Origin: Terrimicrobiaceae bacterium | GTDB taxonomy: Bacteria > Verrucomicrobiota > Verrucomicrobiia > Chthoniobacterales > JAATET01 | Direction: 5' to 3' | DNA: 36,947 nt | Assembly: GCA_028713285.1 (NCBI GenBank) | Contig: JAQTOP010000027.1 | Coordinates: 1-36,947, forward strand | Shown here: positions 17,226-26,546 of the stretch, one piece after another | How positions within the stretch are numbered: the first letter of the stretch is position 1 | Layout: the number at the start of each line of letters is the position of its first letter | Made by a program: the position numbers and the translations under genes | The notes under the pieces: model-generated | Database searches by the model: none | Told to the model about the DNA's origin: nothing | What the model saw: only the letters and a program-made list of their open reading frames with translations

Positions 17226-18464
17226 TTACCAGCGGAGCGCCTGGAAGCGGCGCCCGACTTCCTCTACGTTCGCGCGGCTGTTGAAGGCCGAGATGCGGAA
17301 GTAGCCTTCGCCCGCGAGGCCGAAGCCGCTGCCCGGGGTGACGACGACATTTGCCTCGCCGAGGATCGCGTCGAACAGCTCCCAGCTCGTGCGGCCCTGC
17401 GGCCCGCGCACCCAGATGTAGGGCGCGTTCTCGCCGCCGTGGACCGAGAGGCCGCATTCCGCGACGGCCTCGCGCAGGATCGCGGCATTGCCCATGTAGA
17501 GATCGATGAGGGACGCCACCTGCGCGCGGCCTTCGGCGGAATACAGCGCCTCCGCGCCGCGTTGCGTGATGTAGCTCACGCCGTTGAACTTCGTGCTGAA
17601 ACGGCGGTTCCACAGCGGGTGCAGCGGTTTCTTTTCGCCCCCGTCGGTGTGGCAGAGCAACTCGTGGGGGACGATGGTGAACGCGCAGCGCGTGCCGGTG
17701 AACCCGCCGTTTTTGGAAAAGCTGCGGAACTCGATCGCGCACTTCCTCGCGCCGGGAATCTCGTAGATCGAGTGCGGCACGGAGGCGTCCCGGATGTAGG
17801 CCTCGTAAGCCGCATCGAAGAGAATCACCGCCTCGTGCTCGAGCGCGTAGGCCACCCAGCGTTCGAGCTGCGCGCGCGTGGCGGTCGCGCCGGTGGGATT
17901 GTTGGGATAGCAGAGATAGATCAAGTCCACAGGCTCGTCCGGCAGCGCGGACACGAAGCCATTCTCCCCGGTGCAGGGGAGATAGACCAATCCGCCGTAG
18001 CGTCCGCTTTCGTCGGCCTCGCCGGTGTGGCCCGCCATCACGTTCGTATCGACATAGACGGGATAAACCGGATCCATGAGCGCGATGCGGTTGTCGTGCC
18101 CGAAGATGTCCAGGATGTTGCCGCAATCGCATTTCGAACCGTCGGAGACGAACACCTCGTCGTCCGCGACCTCGAGGCCCTTTGCGCGGTAGTCGTTCTC
18201 CGCGATGGCGCGCCGGAGGAACTCGTAGCCCTGCTCGGGCCCGTAGCCGTGGAATCCCTCGCGGGTGCCCATCTCATCGATCGCGCGGTGCATCGCGTCG
18301 CGCGCGGCGAGGGGCAGGGGCTCGGTGACATCGCCGATACCGCAGCGAATGAGGCGCTTCGCGGCCTCGGGATTCGCATCGCAGAAGCTTTTCACCCGCC
18401 GGCCAATTTCGGGGAAGAGGTAGCCGGCCTTGAGTTTGAGGTAATTTGAATTGAGCTGGGCCAT
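17226..18464 (-). CDS. dapL: LL-diaminopimelate aminotransferase (DapL)
   Basis: PLP enzyme converting tetrahydrodipicolinate directly to LL-2,6-diaminopimelate in lysine and peptidoglycan synthesis, bypassing the succinyl or acetyl intermediates. The product is 412 residues, standard for DapL. The N-terminus [16 protein letters not shown] is diagnostic. F-V-S-D-G-S-K-C-D is at 105-113, Y-P-N-N-P-T-G at 186-192, and the PLP lysine is Lys251 in [13 protein letters not shown] at 18464 fits the conserved start. DapL is restricted to plants, Chlamydiae, Verrucomicrobiota, some archaea and a few other phyla, which helps place this organism. Confidence 0.97.
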
Positions 18465-18484
18465 GGAAAGTGGGGCAGATTTAA

Positions 18485-18500
18485 CAGGATTTACGGGATT
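18485..18500 (+). repeat. Dispersed 16-base repeat, copy 2
   Basis: CAGGATTTACGGGATT, preceded by TTTAA, matches the sequence at 14256-14271 at 14 of 16 positions. It sits in the short gap between the DUF6883-like gene and dapL. Confidence 0.6.
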
Positions 18501-18553
18501 GGACAAAGGCCGTTCGCTCCGGCAGCTCCGCCGCCGCCCAACATTTTCGCAGA

Positions 18554-18895
18554 TCACGCCACCGTCCACGCATCCGCCTGCTTGAGCACCATCACGATCG
18601 CGTCCACGATCCAAACCGAACGAATACACGGGTTGCGACCGTCGGGAGACTGCACGGTGCATTCGAGGATGAATTTTACGCCATGCTCCGAGTTCTTCAC
18701 TTCGACAACCGGCTGTGTCAGGCCGTGGCTTCGTAGTGACGCTTCAAGTTGTTCGGGCTTAGCCTGCGCAAATCCAAATTGCATAAAGAACTTTGCTTTC
18801 CCTTTGCCGTCAGGATGGGACAGCGAAAGCAGATAATCGGTGAGCTTCGTCGGCTCCACTTGAGCCCTGTCTGCGTTCTGTAACCTTTCACTCAT
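18554..18895 (-). CDS. DUF6883-like protein
   Basis: A 113-residue protein matching the DUF6883 pattern as I recall it: K-L-T-D-Y-L-L-S[13 protein letters not shown] near residue 17-37, then F-G-F, and a C-terminal [13 protein letters not shown]. No biochemical function is known. It starts two bases after the res stop and is the last gene of the restriction operon. DUF6883 and DUF4926 genes are, to my recollection, frequent neighbours; here the DUF4926-like domain is fused to the end of Res. A toxin/antitoxin relation is conceivable but unproven. ATG at 18895 is set by the fit to the family and the tight spacing. Confidence 0.75.
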
Positions 18896-18897
18896 GT

Positions 18898-21800
18898 TCA
18901 GTTCGCGGGTATAACTTGGTTGAAGGCCAAAGTGACGACTTTGGAGCCTTGCGGAGTGATGAACTCGACTTCGCAAGCGCGGCCGTCTGCATGGAGATGA
19001 ACGACCGTTCCCCTGGCACCAGCAGTAACGCCTTCAGCGGGCAGCGTGGTCGTGAGCGAGACAATGTCGTGCTCCTTGATTGACGGTGCAGTGACGGTTG
19101 CCTGTGGCCGTCCGGCCTGCCAGAGCCGGTTCAAGCCGTCCACCCAAGTCACCAACGCAGTCCTCGCCTCGGTTGGATTCGTTAGCGGTGCTTCCTGATG
19201 CGCTACGCGTGTATTCCGGAAGTCGTTAATCGTTTTCACCCGGTCCAGCAGGTCGCGCCCTCCGGTGAATTTGAGTTCCGCCTTCACAGCTTCGAACACG
19301 CCAGCCAGCCGCGTGTTGTCGTTCAGTGCGTAGTCGAGGCAGTTGCGGAGCAAGCCGAGCGGAGAGACGCCGTTCTTGTAAACAAGAGTCTTCCGCAGAT
19401 TGCGCGCGACCTCCTCGTAGTGTCGGCGTTTCGTGTGTTCGACCGCCCCGAAGTGCGGTTCAAACCAATCGCGCTGGTCCTGCATGTTGGGCGGCATCTT
19501 TGGTGTGAGCTTTTGAAGCACCAAGCCCTTCGCCGTTTCGTCAATAACACCAAGCAGCGCGGTGAACACCGGCGCATAGTTCACGTCCTGCTTCTTCTCG
19601 AAGAAACCAAAAAGCGAAATTGATTCGTCAGCAGCTTTCCGCAAACGGTCCGGCAGATTGTTGAGAAGCTTTTGATCGACGACGCCCTGCGCCTCCGCTG
19701 CTTTCCCTTCGAGCATTCCGAGACCGGCAAACAGCGGCAACTCTTCGCGAAACTTCTCCTCGTTCAGCAGGTCATGCAGCGACGGCGCACACATCCGCGC
19801 GAGTTCCGCTACGGTGTTGCCTTGGAACCGCTGGAAGACGCCTTCCGGGACGAAGAGGTATTCCCACTTCACCTGCTTCGTGGATGCCGCCTTGCACCAC
19901 TCCACCGCCGCCCGCGCCTTCACCGGCACGTCCTTGTCCACCTGGCCTTTCGTCTCGACCAAGAAGTAATTTCCCGCCGCGGCGCGGACAAAGAAATCCG
20001 GCGTGTAGAACGCCAGTCGAACGCCATCGGCGAGGTAATCCACCCGCAGGCATTGCGGTCCCGCATTCTTCGCGAACGCCGCCACGTCCGATGCCTTTGC
20101 GCACAGTCCGACGAAAGCTGACTCCAGCGTCCGATTGCAAGGCACGAGGTTGAACACCGTCCGCTCCGATTGCTGGACCGGTCGCCGCTCGCTGACCGTC
20201 ACCTGGAAGGGGCGCCACGCCGCCACGGAAATCGGCGTAGCCTCCAACGTGCGCAACTGCTTCTGAATCGTTTTCCGGCGCACCAGCGGGACAAACACCG
20301 CCCGCACATGCTCGCGCACATCGCTGTCCGAGAGCCGCGCAACCAGCGAGGACTCAAAGACCGAGTGTCCCGGCCCGAACAGCATCTCTTCAAAAAACTT
20401 CTGCAACAGCGGAGCCAGCACCTGATGCGTGCTCTTCACCTTGCAGATATATTCCACTTCCTGCACGTAGAAGGAAATCGCCCCGACCCCCGACTCAAGC
20501 AGGGCAAGGTTGACCTTCATATGTTCAACGACTTCCCCGGTGATAAGATGCCGTCCCTCGTATTGAACTTCGTCCGGACCACGCTCTCCAATAGGTAGCG
20601 GCTTGAAGGTCTTGAATGCCTCCTGCAACTCCGCCTCCGTAATCGGTCCCAGCACGGGCAGCGTCTGGTTTGCCGCCGTCAGTCTCGGGATGGAGATGGC
20701 CAGCGCTTCGGCGTCCTTCTTTGGGTTGGGGTAGATGGATACGGTGGTCGTCGGCACCTTGTCCACGTCCACGATTTCGATCGGCAGTCCCTCTTGCGCG
20801 AGTTCATCCCGATACAATCGGGCAAACGCCTCATGCTCGATCACCGCGACAATCTCATTCGCCTGCCCCGGCGGCGTCATGCGGCGCAGGCCGCGCCCCA
20901 GCGTTTGCTCCGGCAAAATGCCCGCCTTCGAGCTGTAAGCCCGCAACGGAACAATCGTCGTCACGTTCTTCACGTCCCAGCCCTCGCGCAGCATCAGCAC
21001 GCTCACGATGCAGTAATACGGACTCTCGCCGGAATCCAACTCGCGACTCAGCTTGCGCAACGCCTTCAAGTCCTCGTCGCTGATGTCCTTCTCGCTCTCG
21101 ACGAATTCCTCCCGCGCATCCGCGCCTTTTCCGATCTTCTTGATCTTGCCCTTGAGGTTCGTGTGCAGGTTGATGGTGCGCCCGTTGACCTCCTTAAAAA
21201 TTGCATCGCCATTCAAACGAGCCGTGATTTCGTCCGCCGCCGCGGTGTTCTCGCACATGACGAAAAGCAGCGGCTTCTTTCCGCTCTTCAGCCACTCGTC
21301 GCGGCTTTTAAGCCAGCGCTCGTAGCCGAGCTTCAGGTGCATCTCGAATCGGTAGGCAGCGTTGTCCGTCGCCTGCTCCACGAGATGTCCCGCCCGTCCG
21401 ATGATGGGCGTCTTGACGATGCCCGCATCGACCGCCTCGCCCAGCGGCGTGTCACAGATGATGTGTTTGAAATAGTTCGCCTTGTTGTCCTTGGGCGTGG
21501 CGGAGAAATCGAGCTGCGCCACCAGCCCGCCCTGCGTGCGCTTGCGGATGGTGTCGTGTAGAAACGTGATGGCCTCATTCCAGGCCGAGTCCGGGTCCCA
21601 GACATGGTGCGCCTCGTCGTTCATCACCATCACTCGCGCATGACCGGTGATGCGTTCGCGCAGCGCCGCTCCGGTATCCAGCGCTTTCGACTTGCTCACG
21701 GACGGCCCGATCCAGTCGTGCATCTCGCCGCTCTCGCGTTTCCGGGAGTTGTCGAAGAGCCGGTGGATGTTCGTCAGGTAAAGCGTCCCGCCCGTGCTCG

Positions 21801-22515
21801 CCCCGCCCGCCTCATCCTGCAAAACCGTGGTCAGATTCCAATCCCCGCGCCATTCCACTGGGATGAGCGGGTCGGTGTCGAAGATGTCCGGCCCGCCCCC
21901 CGCCGGTTTGAAGTCCTCCTTCAGCCGCTCAAACACCGTCAGGTTCGGCGCGATGACGATGAAGTGCCGAGCCATCGGCGAATCACTCTCCCGCAGCGCG
22001 TGAAAATAGCTCCACACGATCGCCAGGCTCATCACCTTCGTCTTGCCGGAGCCGGTCGCCATCTTGAAGGCGTAGCGGCTCCACGCATCCTCCTCTTCCG
22101 TAACGCCCAGTGCCGTCGTCTCCGCGTAGGCGCCGCCATACTCCGCGATGAGCTGCGAGAGACATTCCAGCTTTCGGACTTCCTTGAGATAAATCAGCGT
22201 CTCAATCGCCTCCCGCTGACAGAAGTAATAGCGGAACTCGTGGGCTTCCCCGTTCGTGCCGACGGCGTGCGTCCGCCCGAACCAGTGATTGAGTAATTGC
22301 CGCGACGTGTCACTCGCGCCGAAGTAAAAATTTTCCCGCCACTCCTTCACCATCGCCCGCAGATTCTGCGCGATGGCGATGCGCGTCGGTCGCCGTCCCT
22401 TCCGCTCGACAGCGCCCCGGCCACCTTCCGCCCGCACGCGATGTTTGTCCGGCTCTTCCCACGCTGCGAACAATGGTTCCAGCGCCTCGGTCTTGATGGT
22501 CAGGTTCTCGGGCAT
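18898..22515 (-). CDS. res: Type III-like restriction helicase-nuclease (Res) with HEPN-like and DUF4926-like C-terminal regions
   Basis: A 1,205-residue DNA translocase/nuclease. Helicase motifs are Walker A A-T-G-S-G-K-T at 153-159, D-E-A-H at 300-303, S-A-T at 338-340 and Q-T-L-G-R-G-L-R-R at 537-545. A PD-(D/E)XK nuclease follows: P-D at 839-840 and E-T-K at 854-856. An additional helical region, about 960-1135, ends with F-R-N-T-R-V-A-H (Arg1100, His1106), resembling the R-N-x4-H signature of HEPN ribonucleases. Residues 1146-1205 match the small beta-barrel DUF4926 pattern (H-D-I-V-S-L-T-T-T-L-P, R-G-T-V-V). It lies 3 bases after the 80-residue gene and 2 bases before the DUF6883-like gene. 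Core call secure; the two extra regions are pattern-based. Confidence 0.9.
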   Translation of the reverse strand: MPENLTIKTEALEPLFAAWEEPDKHRVRAEGGRGAVERKGRRPTRIAIAQNLRAMVKEWRENFYFGASDTSRQLLNHWFGRTHAVGTNGEAHEFRYYFCQREAIETLIYLKEVRKLECLSQLIAEYGGAYAETTALGVTEEEDAWSRYAFKMATGSGKTKVMSLAIVWSYFHALRESDSPMARHFIVIAPNLTVFERLKEDFKPAGGGPDIFDTDPLIPVEWRGDWNLTTVLQDEAGGASTGGTLYLTNIHRLFDNSRKRESGEMHDWIGPSVSKSKALDTGAALRERITGHARVMVMNDEAHHVWDPDSAWNEAITFLHDTIRKRTQGGLVAQLDFSATPKDNKANYFKHIICDTPLGEAVDAGIVKTPIIGRAGHLVEQATDNAAYRFEMHLKLGYERWLKSRDEWLKSGKKPLLFVMCENTAAADEITARLNGDAIFKEVNGRTINLHTNLKGKIKKIGKGADAREEFVESEKDISDEDLKALRKLSRELDSGESPYYCIVSVLMLREGWDVKNVTTIVPLRAYSSKAGILPEQTLGRGLRRMTPPGQANEIVAVIEHEAFARLYRDELAQEGLPIEIVDVDKVPTTTVSIYPNPKKDAEALAISIPRLTAANQTLPVLGPITEAELQEAFKTFKPLPIGERGPDEVQYEGRHLITGEVVEHMKVNLALLESGVGAISFYVQEVEYICKVKSTHQVLAPLLQKFFEEMLFGPGHSVFESSLVARLSDSDVREHVRAVFVPLVRRKTIQKQLRTLEATPISVAAWRPFQVTVSERRPVQQSERTVFNLVPCNRTLESAFVGLCAKASDVAAFAKNAGPQCLRVDYLADGVRLAFYTPDFFVRAAAGNYFLVETKGQVDKDVPVKARAAVEWCKAASTKQVKWEYLFVPEGVFQRFQGNTVAELARMCAPSLHDLLNEEKFREELPLFAGLGMLEGKAAEAQGVVDQKLLNNLPDRLRKAADESISLFGFFEKKQDVNYAPVFTALLGVIDETAKGLVLQKLTPKMPPNMQDQRDWFEPHFGAVEHTKRRHYEEVARNLRKTLVYKNGVSPLGLLRNCLDYALNDNTRLAGVFEAVKAELKFTGGRDLLDRVKTINDFRNTRVAHQEAPLTNPTEARTALVTWVDGLNRLWQAGRPQATVTAPSIKEHDIVSLTTTLPAEGVTAGARGTVVHLHADGRACEVEFITPQGSKVVTLAFNQVIPAN

Positions 22516-22518
22516 GGG

Positions 22519-22761
22519 TCAATTCTTCGGTTTGGGGGTCCCATACGGGGGCGGTGTTTCGTTGAGTAGCAGCGACTCCATCGTCATCTGGAAGAGCCAC
22601 GGCTTCACCGTCCGTCCCCGCTGCCGCTGAATGGGAGCGGCGAGCGCCTGCAGGCGGACGAGCGCGGCGATCTTCTCGGGAAAGGAAGCGCGCGCCAGCC
22701 GTTGCCGGCGGTTTTCCTTGGCGGCGAACAGCCGCTGCATTTCAGGCGTCAGCTCGTCCAT
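22519..22761 (-). CDS. Small basic protein of 80 residues in the restriction operon
   Basis: Not a named family. It is basic and helical at the N-terminus: R-L-F-A-A-K-E-N-R-R-Q-R-L-A-R, then F-P-E-K-I-A-A-L-V-R-L-Q. The tail is proline-rich. A similar small protein with R-R-x-R-L-A and F-x-E-K-I is, to my recollection, common beside genes for minimal nucleotidyltransferases, consistent with a partner or antitoxin-like role. It overlaps the nucleotidyltransferase gene by 13 bases and ends 3 bases before res, so its expression is tied to both. Confidence 0.72.
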   Translation of the reverse strand: MDELTPEMQRLFAAKENRRQRLARASFPEKIAALVRLQALAAPIQRQRGRTVKPWLFQMTMESLLLNETPPPYGTPKPKN

Positions 22762-23246
22762 AGTTTCCAGCGGGTTTCGAGTTGATGTCGCTGCACGATG
22801 GAGTCCAGCTTCGCCCGGTCGAACTCAGCCTCGGCGAGGAAGGTGGAGAAACGCTGCCGGTCCTTGTCCCGGCCCGTTTGCAGCATGATGGCCGCGAGAT
22901 GCTCCGCCCGCAGCACCCGCGCGGGCGTCACCTCATAGCTCATGTCCACAGCTTCGGTCAGCGCCTCTTCCACCAGGGGATTGTAAGCCGGCAGAAACTG
23001 CACCGGCACTCCCTCGATGTTCACGCATTCACCCTCCTCTGCATAACCGCGCTGGCGCAATGCCTCATACACCGGCCCCAGCGTCAGCAGTCCGCCGCCG
23101 GTGACGGGCAGCACCACGAACACGTCCAGATCATAGGTCAGGAAGGGCTCCATATAGAAGATGGCCCCTACTGCGCCACCGATGGCGTAGCGCGTGATCA
23201 CACCCTCGCGCTCCAACTCGTTCAGGACTCTTAACGTGGCTTCCAT
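22749..23246 (-). CDS. Minimal nucleotidyltransferase-fold protein (MNT/AbiEii-like)
   Basis: A 165-residue polymerase-beta-fold nucleotidyltransferase. The G-G motif A-I-G-G-A-V-G-A-I-F is at 21-30 and the metal-binding D-x-D is Asp39/Asp41 in T-Y-D-L-D-V-F. The usual third acidic residue is not obvious: its position reads V-P-V-Q-F-L-P. Relatives act as antitoxins that nucleotidylate HEPN toxins, as AbiEii-type toxins, or as uncharacterised proteins. Here it lies between mod and res, three bases after mod and overlapping the 80-residue gene. Because Res carries a HEPN-like segment, a modifying or inhibitory role towards Res is an attractive inference. Confidence 0.8.
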   Translation of the reverse strand: MEATLRVLNELEREGVITRYAIGGAVGAIFYMEPFLTYDLDVFVVLPVTGGGLLTLGPVYEALRQRGYAEEGECVNIEGVPVQFLPAYNPLVEEALTEAVDMSYEVTPARVLRAEHLAAIMLQTGRDKDRQRFSTFLAEAEFDRAKLDSIVQRHQLETRWKLWTS

Positions 23247-23249
23247 AGT

Positions 23250-25205
23250 TCAGACAGTGACGTCAATTGTGATGCTCGTATCGCAGCCGAAGACATCCAC
23301 CACCTTCACGCAGATCGTGTGCTTCCCGCCTTTTTCGTAGGTGTGCCCGGCGTCGCTCACGGTCTTGAGCGAACGGTCTTTGCGGGTGCGGTAATCCTGC
23401 CAGTGATGGTTGAAGGGCTTGCCGGGATGCCAGTCGAAGTCCACCGCCCAGAAATCAATGAAATCGAAGCCGCTCTTGACCGCCCGCTCCTTCAACGCCT
23501 CCAGTTCCTTGCTCGGCACCTCGGCCAGCGAGGGGAGAAACTTCGTCAGCTTCACGTCCACGGACTTCGCGCTCTTCGCGGCTTCGCGTGAGGTGGATTT
23601 TCTGACCACCGCCTCCGCTTCCAGCACCGCCATTTCGAGGAACGGCGGCGGGCTCGTGCGGTTCTTCTCCATGATCTCGCGCGGGATCGGCACCAGCTTC
23701 ATCTTGATTTTGAACTCCGCCTCCAGCGCGAGACAGTGCGTGCGCAGCTCCATCTCGAATTCCCAGGCAAGGCAATAGACCTCGCGCCCGCCCGCCTGCA
23801 CCGCGGCCTCCGCCACGGCGCGGGCTTCGTTCCGGGTGAACAGCCCGTCAATGCCGTCCACATGGCAGAACGCGCCCGCCTTGCGCCCGTGCAGGAGCGG
23901 GTTGGGCGGGCTGCTCAGAACTTCCGCCTTGAAAAACTCCAGCACGACGCGGCGATGCTCGGCGTCCGCGCCCTTGAGCCGGTCCTTCTGCCACCACTGC
24001 CGCTCGTAACGACCTAGGTTGTAAACATCGAAAGCCCGATACGGCTTGCCCTCATCGTGCAGCTTGCGTTGCAGGTCGATGAGCCGCTTGCGGCTGGTGT
24101 GGATGGAGAAGCGCCCGAGATCGGCCATCAGCCACCGCCGCCCGAGCCGCTCCGCCACCGCCCCCGTCGTCCCGCTCCCGCAGAAAAAATCGGCCACAAG
24201 GTCGCCTTCGTCCGAACCCATTCTGAGGATTCGTTCCACAAAGTCTTCAGGCTTCTGAGTGTTGTAACCGAGCGTCTCTTCAATGTTCGCCGGTTGGAGA
24301 CAACGTATGCGCCAAACGTCATCAACTGTTCGGTCCTCGCTGATATATGTAACCGCTTTCCCATCTGGACCGATGATGTTTTGAATCTGTCCGTCAACTT
24401 TCCGGTATTTGAGTTTTTTGACGGGCTCATCACGTTTCTCTTTGGGGGCGTTGTGAACATGAGAACCGGGAACCTTAGCGTAGCGAAGAATGACGTCGTG
24501 AGCGCGGGGAAGAATCTTTTTCCGGCTGTCGTGAAGCTTGTTGTAGTAATACCAAACGATTTCGTTGAGGAAGTTTTCGGTCCCAAAGACCTCATTCAGC
24601 AAAATCCTGAGTTGTGCACTCATGTGCCAGTCGCAATGCACATAGATGCTCCCCTTGTCCGAAAGCAGTTCCTTCATCAGCGTCAAACGCTCAAACATCA
24701 TGTGAAGGTAGGAGTCGGTGCCTTTTCCCCACATGTCGCGGTAGGCGACCATTTCGAGGGTGGACTGGTCTTTGCCGACGGTCTCCTTCCAGTCGCCGAT
24801 GGGCACGTCCATCGTGAAATCCGCGCCCACGTCGAAGGGCGGGTCAATGTAGATGAGATCCACGCGGCCCTTGAACTCGGCCAGCAGGCTGGCGAGCACC
24901 AGCTTGTTGTCGCCCCAGATGAGCCGGTTGCGGAACGGCTCCCCGCCGTAGCGCGCGCTTTCCTCCTTCACGCGTCCGCTGACGCCTTGATCGAACAACT
25001 CGATCTGCCCCTCCGCCGCCGCCCGCTGTCGCGGCTCGTCCACCGTCTCAATCTTCTGCATCGGCATCGCGCAGGCCGCGACATCCACCTCGCGGCGATT
25101 GCCAAACTCGTCGTATTTCCCATCCCACACCAGCTCCGTGCGCATCTTGGAGAGCGGATGAGGATTCGCCGGTCCCCAATGAAAAGCGTTCTTTGACTCG
25201 TCCAT
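23250..25205 (-). CDS. mod: Type III-like DNA methyltransferase (Mod), beta class
   Basis: A 651-residue adenine or N4-cytosine DNA methylase and likely specificity subunit of the restriction system. Catalytic motif IV, D-P-P-F, is at 121-124 and the SAM-binding motif F-C-G-S-G-T-T is at 341-347, the IV-before-I order of beta-class methylases. Target recognition is expected between them, around 215-310; the DNA there (about 24280-24570) is visibly AT-richer, as is common for exchanged recognition domains. Residues 536-552 (T-S-R-E-A-A-K-S-A-K-S) come from an inserted short repeat. The C-terminal 60 residues form a beta-rich tail. It precedes the nucleotidyltransferase gene by 3 bases. Confidence 0.92.
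   Translation of the reverse strand: MDESKNAFHWGPANPHPLSKMRTELVWDGKYDEFGNRREVDVAACAMPMQKIETVDEPRQRAAAEGQIELFDQGVSGRVKEESARYGGEPFRNRLIWGDNKLVLASLLAEFKGRVDLIYIDPPFDVGADFTMDVPIGDWKETVGKDQSTLEMVAYRDMWGKGTDSYLHMMFERLTLMKELLSDKGSIYVHCDWHMSAQLRILLNEVFGTENFLNEIVWYYYNKLHDSRKKILPRAHDVILRYAKVPGSHVHNAPKEKRDEPVKKLKYRKVDGQIQNIIGPDGKAVTYISEDRTVDDVWRIRCLQPANIEETLGYNTQKPEDFVERILRMGSDEGDLVADFFCGSGTTGAVAERLGRRWLMADLGRFSIHTSRKRLIDLQRKLHDEGKPYRAFDVYNLGRYERQWWQKDRLKGADAEHRRVVLEFFKAEVLSSPPNPLLHGRKAGAFCHVDGIDGLFTRNEARAVAEAAVQAGGREVYCLAWEFEMELRTHCLALEAEFKIKMKLVPIPREIMEKNRTSPPPFLEMAVLEAEAVVRKSTSREAAKSAKSVDVKLTKFLPSLAEVPSKELEALKERAVKSGFDFIDFWAVDFDWHPGKPFNHHWQDYRTRKDRSLKTVSDAGHTYEKGGKHTICVKVVDVFGCDTSITIDVTV
23565..23588 (-). 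repeat. In-frame CGCGAAG repeat inside mod
   Basis: Three copies of CTTCGCG on the plus strand, at 23565-23571, 23574-23580 and 23582-23588, followed by TGAGG. Read in the mod direction they encode S-R-E-A-A-K-S-A-K. Repeats with the theme CGCGAAG are a familiar dispersed intergenic type in GC-rich genomes, so this looks like an in-frame insertion. Confidence 0.6.
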
Positions 25206-25206
25206 G

Positions 25207-25395
25207 TTATTTTTCGCTCCGGTTGGGGAGGATGTAGTGCGTGCCGCTGGAGTGGCCCTTACGAACCAAACTCTTCTCCAGAATCGCGCGGTTAAAGAAG
25301 GTAATGGCCTGGTCGTATTCGACGCCCGCGATTTCGCGCAGCTTGGAGTTTCGAATCGACGGGTTTGTTTTTAGAAAGACGAGCGCGGCATCCAT
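25207..25395 (-). CDS. Small winged-helix-like protein, first gene of the restriction operon
   Basis: A 62-residue product with the pattern I-R-N-S-K-L-R-E-I-A-G-V-E-Y-D-Q-A, then F-F-N-R-A-I-L-E-K-S-L-V-R-K-G and G-T-H-Y-I-L. This is the helix-turn-helix plus wing arrangement of winged-helix domains, similar to the C-terminal DNA-binding tail of AlbA/RecG-type regulators. It ends one base before mod. It may be a transcriptional regulator of the operon, or the surviving C-terminus of a larger protein, since the sequence upstream holds a truncated hsdM start. ATG at 25395 is the only good start. Confidence 0.6.
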   Translation of the reverse strand: MDAALVFLKTNPSIRNSKLREIAGVEYDQAITFFNRAILEKSLVRKGHSSGTHYILPNRSEK

Positions 25396-25414
25396 GCAAC
25401 GGGTGAACGTCTCC

Positions 25415-25489
25415 TCAGAGACGGTCGGCGGCGGACCAGAGCTTTCGGTCGAGTTCTCTCAAAAATTGCTGGGAGTCGGCGGTGGACAT
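25415..25489 (-). pseudogene. hsdM: Remnant of hsdM (type I methylase) N-terminus
   Basis: A 24-codon frame from ATG 25489 to a TGA at 25415. Residues 9-24 read F-L-R-E-L-D-R-K-L-W-S-A-A-D-R-L, which matches the start of type I HsdM proteins, where F-L-x-E-L-D-x-K-L-W-x-A-A-D-K-L-R-S-N precedes the conserved D-A-A-x-Y-K-H region. Homology stops at the TGA, and the sequence passes into the winged-helix gene frame across the palindrome GTCTC-TGAG-GAGAC. The rest of the methylase and any hsdS/hsdR are absent, so it is a fragment left after replacement or deletion. Confidence 0.65.
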
Positions 25490-25661
25490 GGAAGAAGAGA
25501 CTGTCCTCCACGCTGCCTGGGCTCCGGGAGGCACGGGAGTCAGGGACATTTAGCGGATACGGCTCCACAGGGAAAGAAGGAACCGGCACCGTGTGTGCGC
25601 GTCGCGAGGCCGGGAAAGGCTTCGGAGAAGCCGGGTTCCCTGCCGGGGGCAGTGGGCAGCC

Positions 25662-25679
25662 GTTCAACTTGGGTTGAAC
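25662..25679. other. Perfect 7-base hairpin
   Basis: GTTCAAC and GTTGAAC are complementary with a TTGG loop. The hairpin abuts the inverted-repeat element. It could act as a weak terminator or be the outer edge of that element; no T-tract follows. Confidence 0.4.
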
Positions 25680-25819
25680 CTTAGAGAACACGGAGAATCA
25701 GCGAGGACGACTCCGGAGAGGCAAGGGGCGCAAAAACACGCCTTGCGCTCCGCACACGACGCGGCAGGCCCGCATGGCACTGCAAAGGACCGGCTCCGTG
25801 TTCTCGGTGCTCTCCGTGG

Positions 25820-25822
<3 letters not shown>
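25677..25822. mobile_element. MITE-like inverted-repeat element next to sodA
   Basis: GAGAACACGGAG at 25684-25695 is a perfect 12-base inverted repeat of CTCCGTGTTCTC at 25794-25805. AACC / GGTT pairs lie further out (25677-25680 and 25818-25821). Between them is a smaller stem (GCAAGG at 25721-25726, CCTTGC at 25741-25746). The right end supplies the TAA stop of sodA. About 146 bases, no coding capacity. Nothing shows that it moves now. Confidence 0.5.
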
Positions 25823-26446
<624 letters not shown>

Positions 26447-26546
26447 GGTGTTTTGTTGGGTTGGAGATCACGCTAGGCCGCGCGGCCCGGCGATCAAGCG
26501 TGGAGTTGCGGCGATTTCGGAATGCGGGCGGGGGCCGCGGTTTGAC

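Follow-up and report, generated by a model that had tools for sequence, protein, structure and literature searches.

A mobile type III restriction-modification island whose Res subunit carries a likely HEPN ribonuclease module and a putative DUF4926 antitoxin domain, with proposed RNA-attacking arms

The window (the whole stretch of DNA analysed here, 36,947 nucleotides from a Terrimicrobiaceae bacterium) contains a defence island at positions 18493..25819, inserted upstream of a gene at 17226-18465 which flanks it and which we named, by eye, LL-diaminopimelate aminotransferase-like. The congeners L112-L114 do not have the island, and the genes that flank it (17226-18465 and 25820-26467) are close together in these organisms: they are separated by about 0.08 kb in L113, 0.6 kb in L112 and 2.9 kb in L114, which makes this a variable site. 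The genomes compared throughout this work are largely MAGs. All genes of the island that are discussed below are on the minus strand. The mod gene (23250..25205) codes for a type III DNA methyltransferase of 651 residues (PADLOC MTase_III, 762 bits; Pfam N6_N4_Mtase), and the res gene (18898..22515) codes for a type III restriction subunit of 1205 residues (Pfam ResIII, 53.7 bits; PADLOC REase_III). A Mod methyltransferase and a Res helicase-nuclease that are encoded together correspond to the gene layout of type III restriction-modification (R-M) systems. The gene downstream of res (18554..18895) codes for a DUF6883 protein, predicted to be an RNase toxin of the BECR fold that is probably inactive in the window.

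Two accessory genes lie between mod and res. The first one (22749..23246) codes for a protein of 165 residues which is nucleotidyltransferase-like, as judged by eye from a GG...DxD pattern; this product has no match in Pfam, PADLOC, NCBIfam or the PDB. The second (22519..22761) overlaps the first and codes for 80 residues with no family match in Pfam, PADLOC or NCBIfam. In relatives, the slot between mod and res contains, again by eye, an ABC/OLD-type ATPase (L043), a PIN protein (L045), a Fic protein (L050) or an AlbA-type protein (L065); in others it contains no accessory gene, and mod abuts res directly in many relatives. The pairing of a HEPN domain in Res with an MNT partner encoded at 22749-23246 was rejected as a rule, since this gene is absent beside res in the relatives examined, including those that have the same Res.

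Res consists of an SF2 helicase, a PD-ExK nuclease whose motif (PDFF...VETK, residues 839-856, positions 19948..20001) was read off the translation, an all-helical HEPN-like module (residues 905-1140, positions 19096..19803, supported by an alignment of 33 sequences, an AlphaFold model and VIA-align) and, at its very end, a fused DUF4926 domain (residues 1146-1205, positions 18901..19080, above the Pfam cut-off). It has in common with EcoP15I-like type III enzymes the Mod and Res subunits, the SF2 helicase and the C-terminal nuclease (PMC4490356), and it differs from them by its additional C-terminal residues. A sequence-only reading of positions 18898-19638, which code for residues 960-1205 plus the stop, had counted about 345 of these; the true addition amounts to about 300 residues (905-1205), since the relatives that have no tail end near residue 907 of the window protein.

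The relatives of Res were drawn from the genomes of the order and of the phylum, from a GTDB-wide scan and from two viral contigs. Almost all those that are full-length or nearly so stop just past the helical region, around residues 1135-1140. More distant Res proteins (L035, L036 and L037, 32-34% identity), which are 915-1000 residues long, end ahead of the HEPN-like region and align no further than about residue 907. This makes the helical region an addition, one by which a subfamily of Res is defined. This subfamily occurs in Verrucomicrobiota, Lentisphaerota, Planctomycetota, Hydrogenedentota, Cyanobacteriota, Chloroflexota, Acidobacteriota, Pseudomonadota and others. The alignments thus indicate that the HEPN-like part is the normal C-terminus of a widespread subfamily of type III Res, and is not special to the window gene. 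In one of the relatives (G063, L033:8075-11576), res is split into two overlapping frames, which is either a frameshift or a real split.

The motif that had attracted attention to this region, R-N-x4-H, is indeed in place: the translation reads RNTRVAH from R1100 to H1106 (positions 19198..19218), with N1101 after the arginine. The pattern FRNxxVAH is kept in near-full-length Res proteins of about nine phyla, and its R, N and H are invariant in the 33 aligned sequences (33/33), whose identity goes down to 27%. It is important to note that one of the two patterns used to search for loci required FRN..VA (H was not required), which by itself accounts for part of the conservation of R and N; yet the whole motif is also kept in five relatives which were found without that pattern, by plain protein search (L031, L032, L033, L038 and L039). 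As far as sequence comparison can tell, the motif is more than chance. Upstream of the motif, where the second conserved acidic residue of HEPN domains (Ex3[KR]) was looked for, D992 (D88 of the alignment) is invariant and is accompanied, in the window, by K996. The dN/dS ratio of the HEPN-like region is low (0.055-0.15).

Regarding the fold, the AlphaFold model of the region (about 905-1140) is an all-helical bundle (pLDDT 86.6, pTM 0.78), as the sequence-only reading had expected of the helical C-terminus, and R-N-x4-H is at the end of a long helix which is followed by one last helix. In HEPN domains, too, the end of the motif-bearing helix precedes one further helix. When the model is compared to known structures with VIA-align, the best match is the HEPN domain of the toxin RnlA (residues 199-357; Z 9.7, rmsd 3.6, 138 aligned residues), a Z score that helical bundles can reach by chance; the next match has a Z of 7.9, Csm6 comes third, and MtlR is also listed. 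Foldseek gives no match under E 0.2 in the PDB or among viral models. In terms of profiles, Pfam matches nothing at residues 905-1140 of Res, no Pfam HEPN family is above its cut-off, no profile match of the region to any HEPN family is significant, and a search against the sequences of the PDB returned no relative. Single members of the subfamily give sub-threshold matches to the HEPN families AbiU2, Abi_2, CARF_HEPN, Csx1 and ApeA, among a handful of weak matches overall. A direct profile comparison with AbiU2 gave no signal, with an AbiU2 alignment of three sequences, which is too thin to count.

The HEPN ribonuclease motif is described as Rx4-6H with an asparagine after the arginine (PMC3710099), and R-N-x4-H of Res fits this pattern, including the polar residue after R. 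The absence of a significant profile or Foldseek match makes the HEPN assignment likely, not proven: considering the motif, the predicted fold and the weak profile hints together, we believe that residues 905-1140 probably form a HEPN domain, and, with a little less confidence, that this domain is catalytic. The earlier proposal of an RNase-like tail is supported in what concerns the HEPN-like bundle, the invariant motif and the presence of HEPN proteins among the best structural matches. The structure and profile searches of the tail returned DUF4926 above its cut-off and no significant HEPN match.

It may be instead that residues 905-1140 are a non-catalytic helical domain, used for the dimerisation of Res, for contacting Mod or for binding nucleic acids, in which case the enzyme would be an ordinary type III enzyme. 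That the module is standard in the Res subfamily, that no HEPN profile or Foldseek match is significant, and that some HEPN domains are known to be non-catalytic (PMC3710099) are all in line with this idea. On the contrary, all three residues of the RNase motif (R, N and H) show no variation (33/33) over a large divergence, the HEPN domains thought to be non-catalytic are those without the RNase motif (PMC3710099), and distant type III Res proteins manage without the module. We consider this alternative rather unlikely, and we favour a HEPN ribonuclease module.

Fusions of HEPN domains to helicases are already known in R-M systems, and a second line of defence based on RNA cleavage has been proposed for them (Anantharaman et al. 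2013, PMC3710099, in the parts used here). Like these fusions, Res has the HEPN-type R, polar N and H on an SF2 helicase-nuclease subunit; unlike what we describe, the helicases and families named in those parts of the article are SWI2/SNF2, EcoEI-like and SF-I helicases and DUF4145, not type III Res.

The end of Res has a different history. DUF4926 (PF16277), which the sequence-only reading had recognised in the last 60 residues, is matched by Pfam at residues 1148-1193 (42.9 bits, for a gathering cut-off of 29.1). Among the relatives of the Res subfamily that we collected, only the window, L044 and L045 run on into DUF4926. The close relatives L042 and L043 do not have it, the Res of L031/L042, which is 95% identical over residues 1-1140, is without it, and the tree of the clade of the window requires two changes (gains or losses). 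A fourth fusion is found in L088 (G038), on a type III Res of an unrelated family, which has its own Mod upstream. In all four cases (window, L044, L045, L088), DUF6883 is the next gene downstream, and since the Res of L088 belongs to another family, the architecture in which Res::DUF4926 precedes DUF6883 arose at least twice. A search of 388 genomes of the phylum gave no Res::DUF4926 above the cut-off besides the window, and three sub-threshold matches in long frames; for 244 genomes of another phylum, there is no long frame among the DUF4926 matches listed. The two C-terminal parts of Res therefore differ, as their distribution indicates: the HEPN-like part is found across the subfamily, and DUF4926 is a sporadic fusion. 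The possibility, raised earlier, that the whole tail is an ordinary part of the Res family holds for the former and fails for the latter, which is absent from most Res relatives.

That the fusion results from an error of assembly or of frame is extremely improbable. The window is one contig of a genome in 157 contigs, but the separate assemblies L044 and L045 share the fusion and the downstream gene, and L088 has it on another Res; these independent genomes led us to rule out the artefact.

The product of the gene at 18554-18895 is a clear DUF6883 (PF21814, 95.8 bits for a gathering cut-off of 27). The adjacency of DUF4926 and DUF6883, which the sequence-only reading had mentioned, is borne out in 147 genomes of the order: of the 26 DUF6883 matches, 25 lie no more than about 100 nt away from a DUF4926 match. 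Two small adjacent genes forming a unit are the layout of type II toxin-antitoxin pairs. DUF6883 precedes DUF4926 in 23 cases, and the two exceptions are the window and G038 (L088), in both of which a type III Res that ends in a fused DUF4926 comes before DUF6883. In L089 (671-1318), DUF6883 and DUF4926 are joined in a single open frame of 215 residues. A DUF6883/DUF4926 pair is also present on a conjugative cyanobacterial plasmid (Stanieria, L099:2098-2722), beside a tyrosine recombinase, a neighbour that fits a mobile cassette. The genome of the window itself contains, elsewhere (G000:C140 64320-64717; L001, L004), two tandem DUF4926 genes with no DUF6883 match.

In the phage contigs L119 and L124 (IMG/VR), Mu gpF-like head proteins have DUF6883 as their C-terminal domain (Pfam Phage_Mu_F and DUF6883, both above cut-off). 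In MuF polymorphic toxins, a small immunity gene comes after the C-terminal toxin domain (Jamet et al. 2017, PMC5576092), and DUF6883 occurs at the same C-terminal position with a small gene directly after it: in L119, this gene codes for 60 residues that match DUF4926 below the cut-off (E 2e-4), and in L124 the small gene matches solely another SH3-type domain. The window departs from the MuF layout: there, the presumed immunity domain is part of a restriction enzyme and is encoded ahead of the toxin gene.

The AlphaFold model of the intact DUF6883 of L044 (pLDDT 94.8) has 6cp9_G as its best structural match (Z 11.6, rmsd 2.1 over 100 residues; Foldseek E 1.4e-4), followed by other CDI toxins, BrnT and RelE. 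The structure 6CP9 is that of CdiA-CT(Kp342), a tRNase toxin of the BECR fold whose active site consists of K157, Y160, H170, R252 and T255 (PMC9086364). In L044, K17, Y21, H27, R105 and T108 follow one another in that order, and, going by where the structural alignment starts and stops (11 on 151, 112 on 259), K17, R105 and T108 fall on K157, R252 and T255, if the ends are ungapped. DUF6883 thus shares with CdiA-CT(Kp342) the fold and the order of K, Y, H, R and T; it differs in being a free-standing or MuF-linked cassette with a DUF4926 partner, and the window copy has neither R nor T. A profile search of DUF6883 against the sequences of the PDB gave no relative, and two low E-values were discarded as matches to the repeats of a designed TIM barrel. 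Searching the literature for both DUF names returned a passing mention of DUF4926 and nothing else. The best reading of these gene neighbourhoods and predicted structures is that DUF6883 acts as an RNase toxin, with DUF4926 as the antitoxin, which would here be fused to Res. The DUF4926 of the first description is a real domain, and the evidence points to an antitoxin for DUF6883 and not to a continuation of the RNase segment.

The DUF6883 copy of the window is damaged. The window and L044 DNA are homologous across DUF4926 and on into DUF6883, as far as the codons of RSVWI(V/I)D, and no further; in the window, unrelated sequence at the island's edge takes the place of the last strand of DUF6883, with its R-x2-T pair. 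The equivalents of the active-site K, Y and H are present, and R and T are lost, whereas L044 has all five. This toxin is probably dead in the window because of the loss of the C-terminal strand and of two active-site residues. From this comparison, the second arm of the system is probably vestigial in the window and intact in relatives, while the antitoxin domain stays on Res.

Another hypothesis is that DUF4926 is a small SH3-like domain that binds nucleic acids or proteins, without any antitoxin role, and that the fusion arose neutrally when a DUF4926/DUF6883 pair happened to land beside res. The fusion is rare, it has been lost or gained among near-identical Res proteins, the DUF6883 of the window is damaged, and small DUF4926-like proteins give weak matches to other SH3-type domains, all of which speak for this hypothesis. 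But the same architecture exists on two unrelated families of type III Res, each time with DUF6883 directly downstream; purifying selection acts on the fused DUF4926 (dN/dS of 0.08 when compared with L044); and DUF6883 resembles a toxin domain whose small partner gene is DUF4926 or DUF4926-like. A neutral fusion seems improbable to us, and we favour an antitoxin role for DUF4926.

Taken together, the domains and their conservation, the order of the genes, the repeated occurrence of the fusion and the folds of the predicted models lead us to an interpretation which we hold with moderate confidence: the island is a mobile type III R-M system whose Res carries a HEPN RNase module and a DUF4926 antitoxin domain, which we propose to be arms for attacking RNA. 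The enzyme that protects against viruses seems to be wired to two ways of attacking RNA.

The first way would rely on the HEPN-type ribonuclease module (905-1140), which would be fixed in the Res subfamily. HEPN RNases act as dimers. A HEPN toxin, for instance, has been described as a dimer with a composite site (PMC7180214), and in type III enzymes, where each Mod dimer is joined by one Res, two inverted sites are required (PMC8259958, PMC4490356), with cleavage occurring only once two complexes have met on unmodified DNA. The meeting of two Res on unmodified DNA, or the collapse or disturbance of the Res complex, may thus pair the HEPN modules, and this pairing would trigger RNA cleavage, which would serve as a back-up or as a suicide arm. 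In the second way, the DUF4926 borne by Res would bind and silence the adjacent DUF6883, the predicted RNase toxin, and the loss or the sabotage of Res would free this toxin, so that lost restriction would be punished.

PrrC held by PrrI is an analogue of a toxin held by Res (PMC3710099). The likeness with the PrrI type Ic R-M system is that a restriction system is tied to a back-up RNase; the difference is that PrrC, an ABC-ATPase/HEPN protein, is encoded separately next to a type I system, whereas the candidate RNase is here within a type III Res (same source). Our search of the literature found no restriction enzyme that carries the antitoxin domain of an RNase toxin encoded next to it.

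A more specific proposal, which we make tentatively and consider possible rather than probable, is that type III Res has become, at least twice and independently, the antitoxin of an adjacent BECR-fold DUF6883 by fusion to DUF4926, that the loss of Res or the failure of restriction would free the toxin, and that a built-in HEPN RNase would act in addition. If this is true, a single polypeptide cleaves DNA, is able to cleave RNA as well, and keeps a second RNase under guard. It would offer testable functions for DUF6883, as a BECR RNase toxin, and for DUF4926, as its antitoxin, and it would tie restriction directly and physically to toxin-antitoxin control, since the antitoxin would be the restriction enzyme itself. 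Last, a broad subfamily of type III Res would have a likely RNase module, so that the idea of an RNA-attacking back-up could be tested on a single protein.
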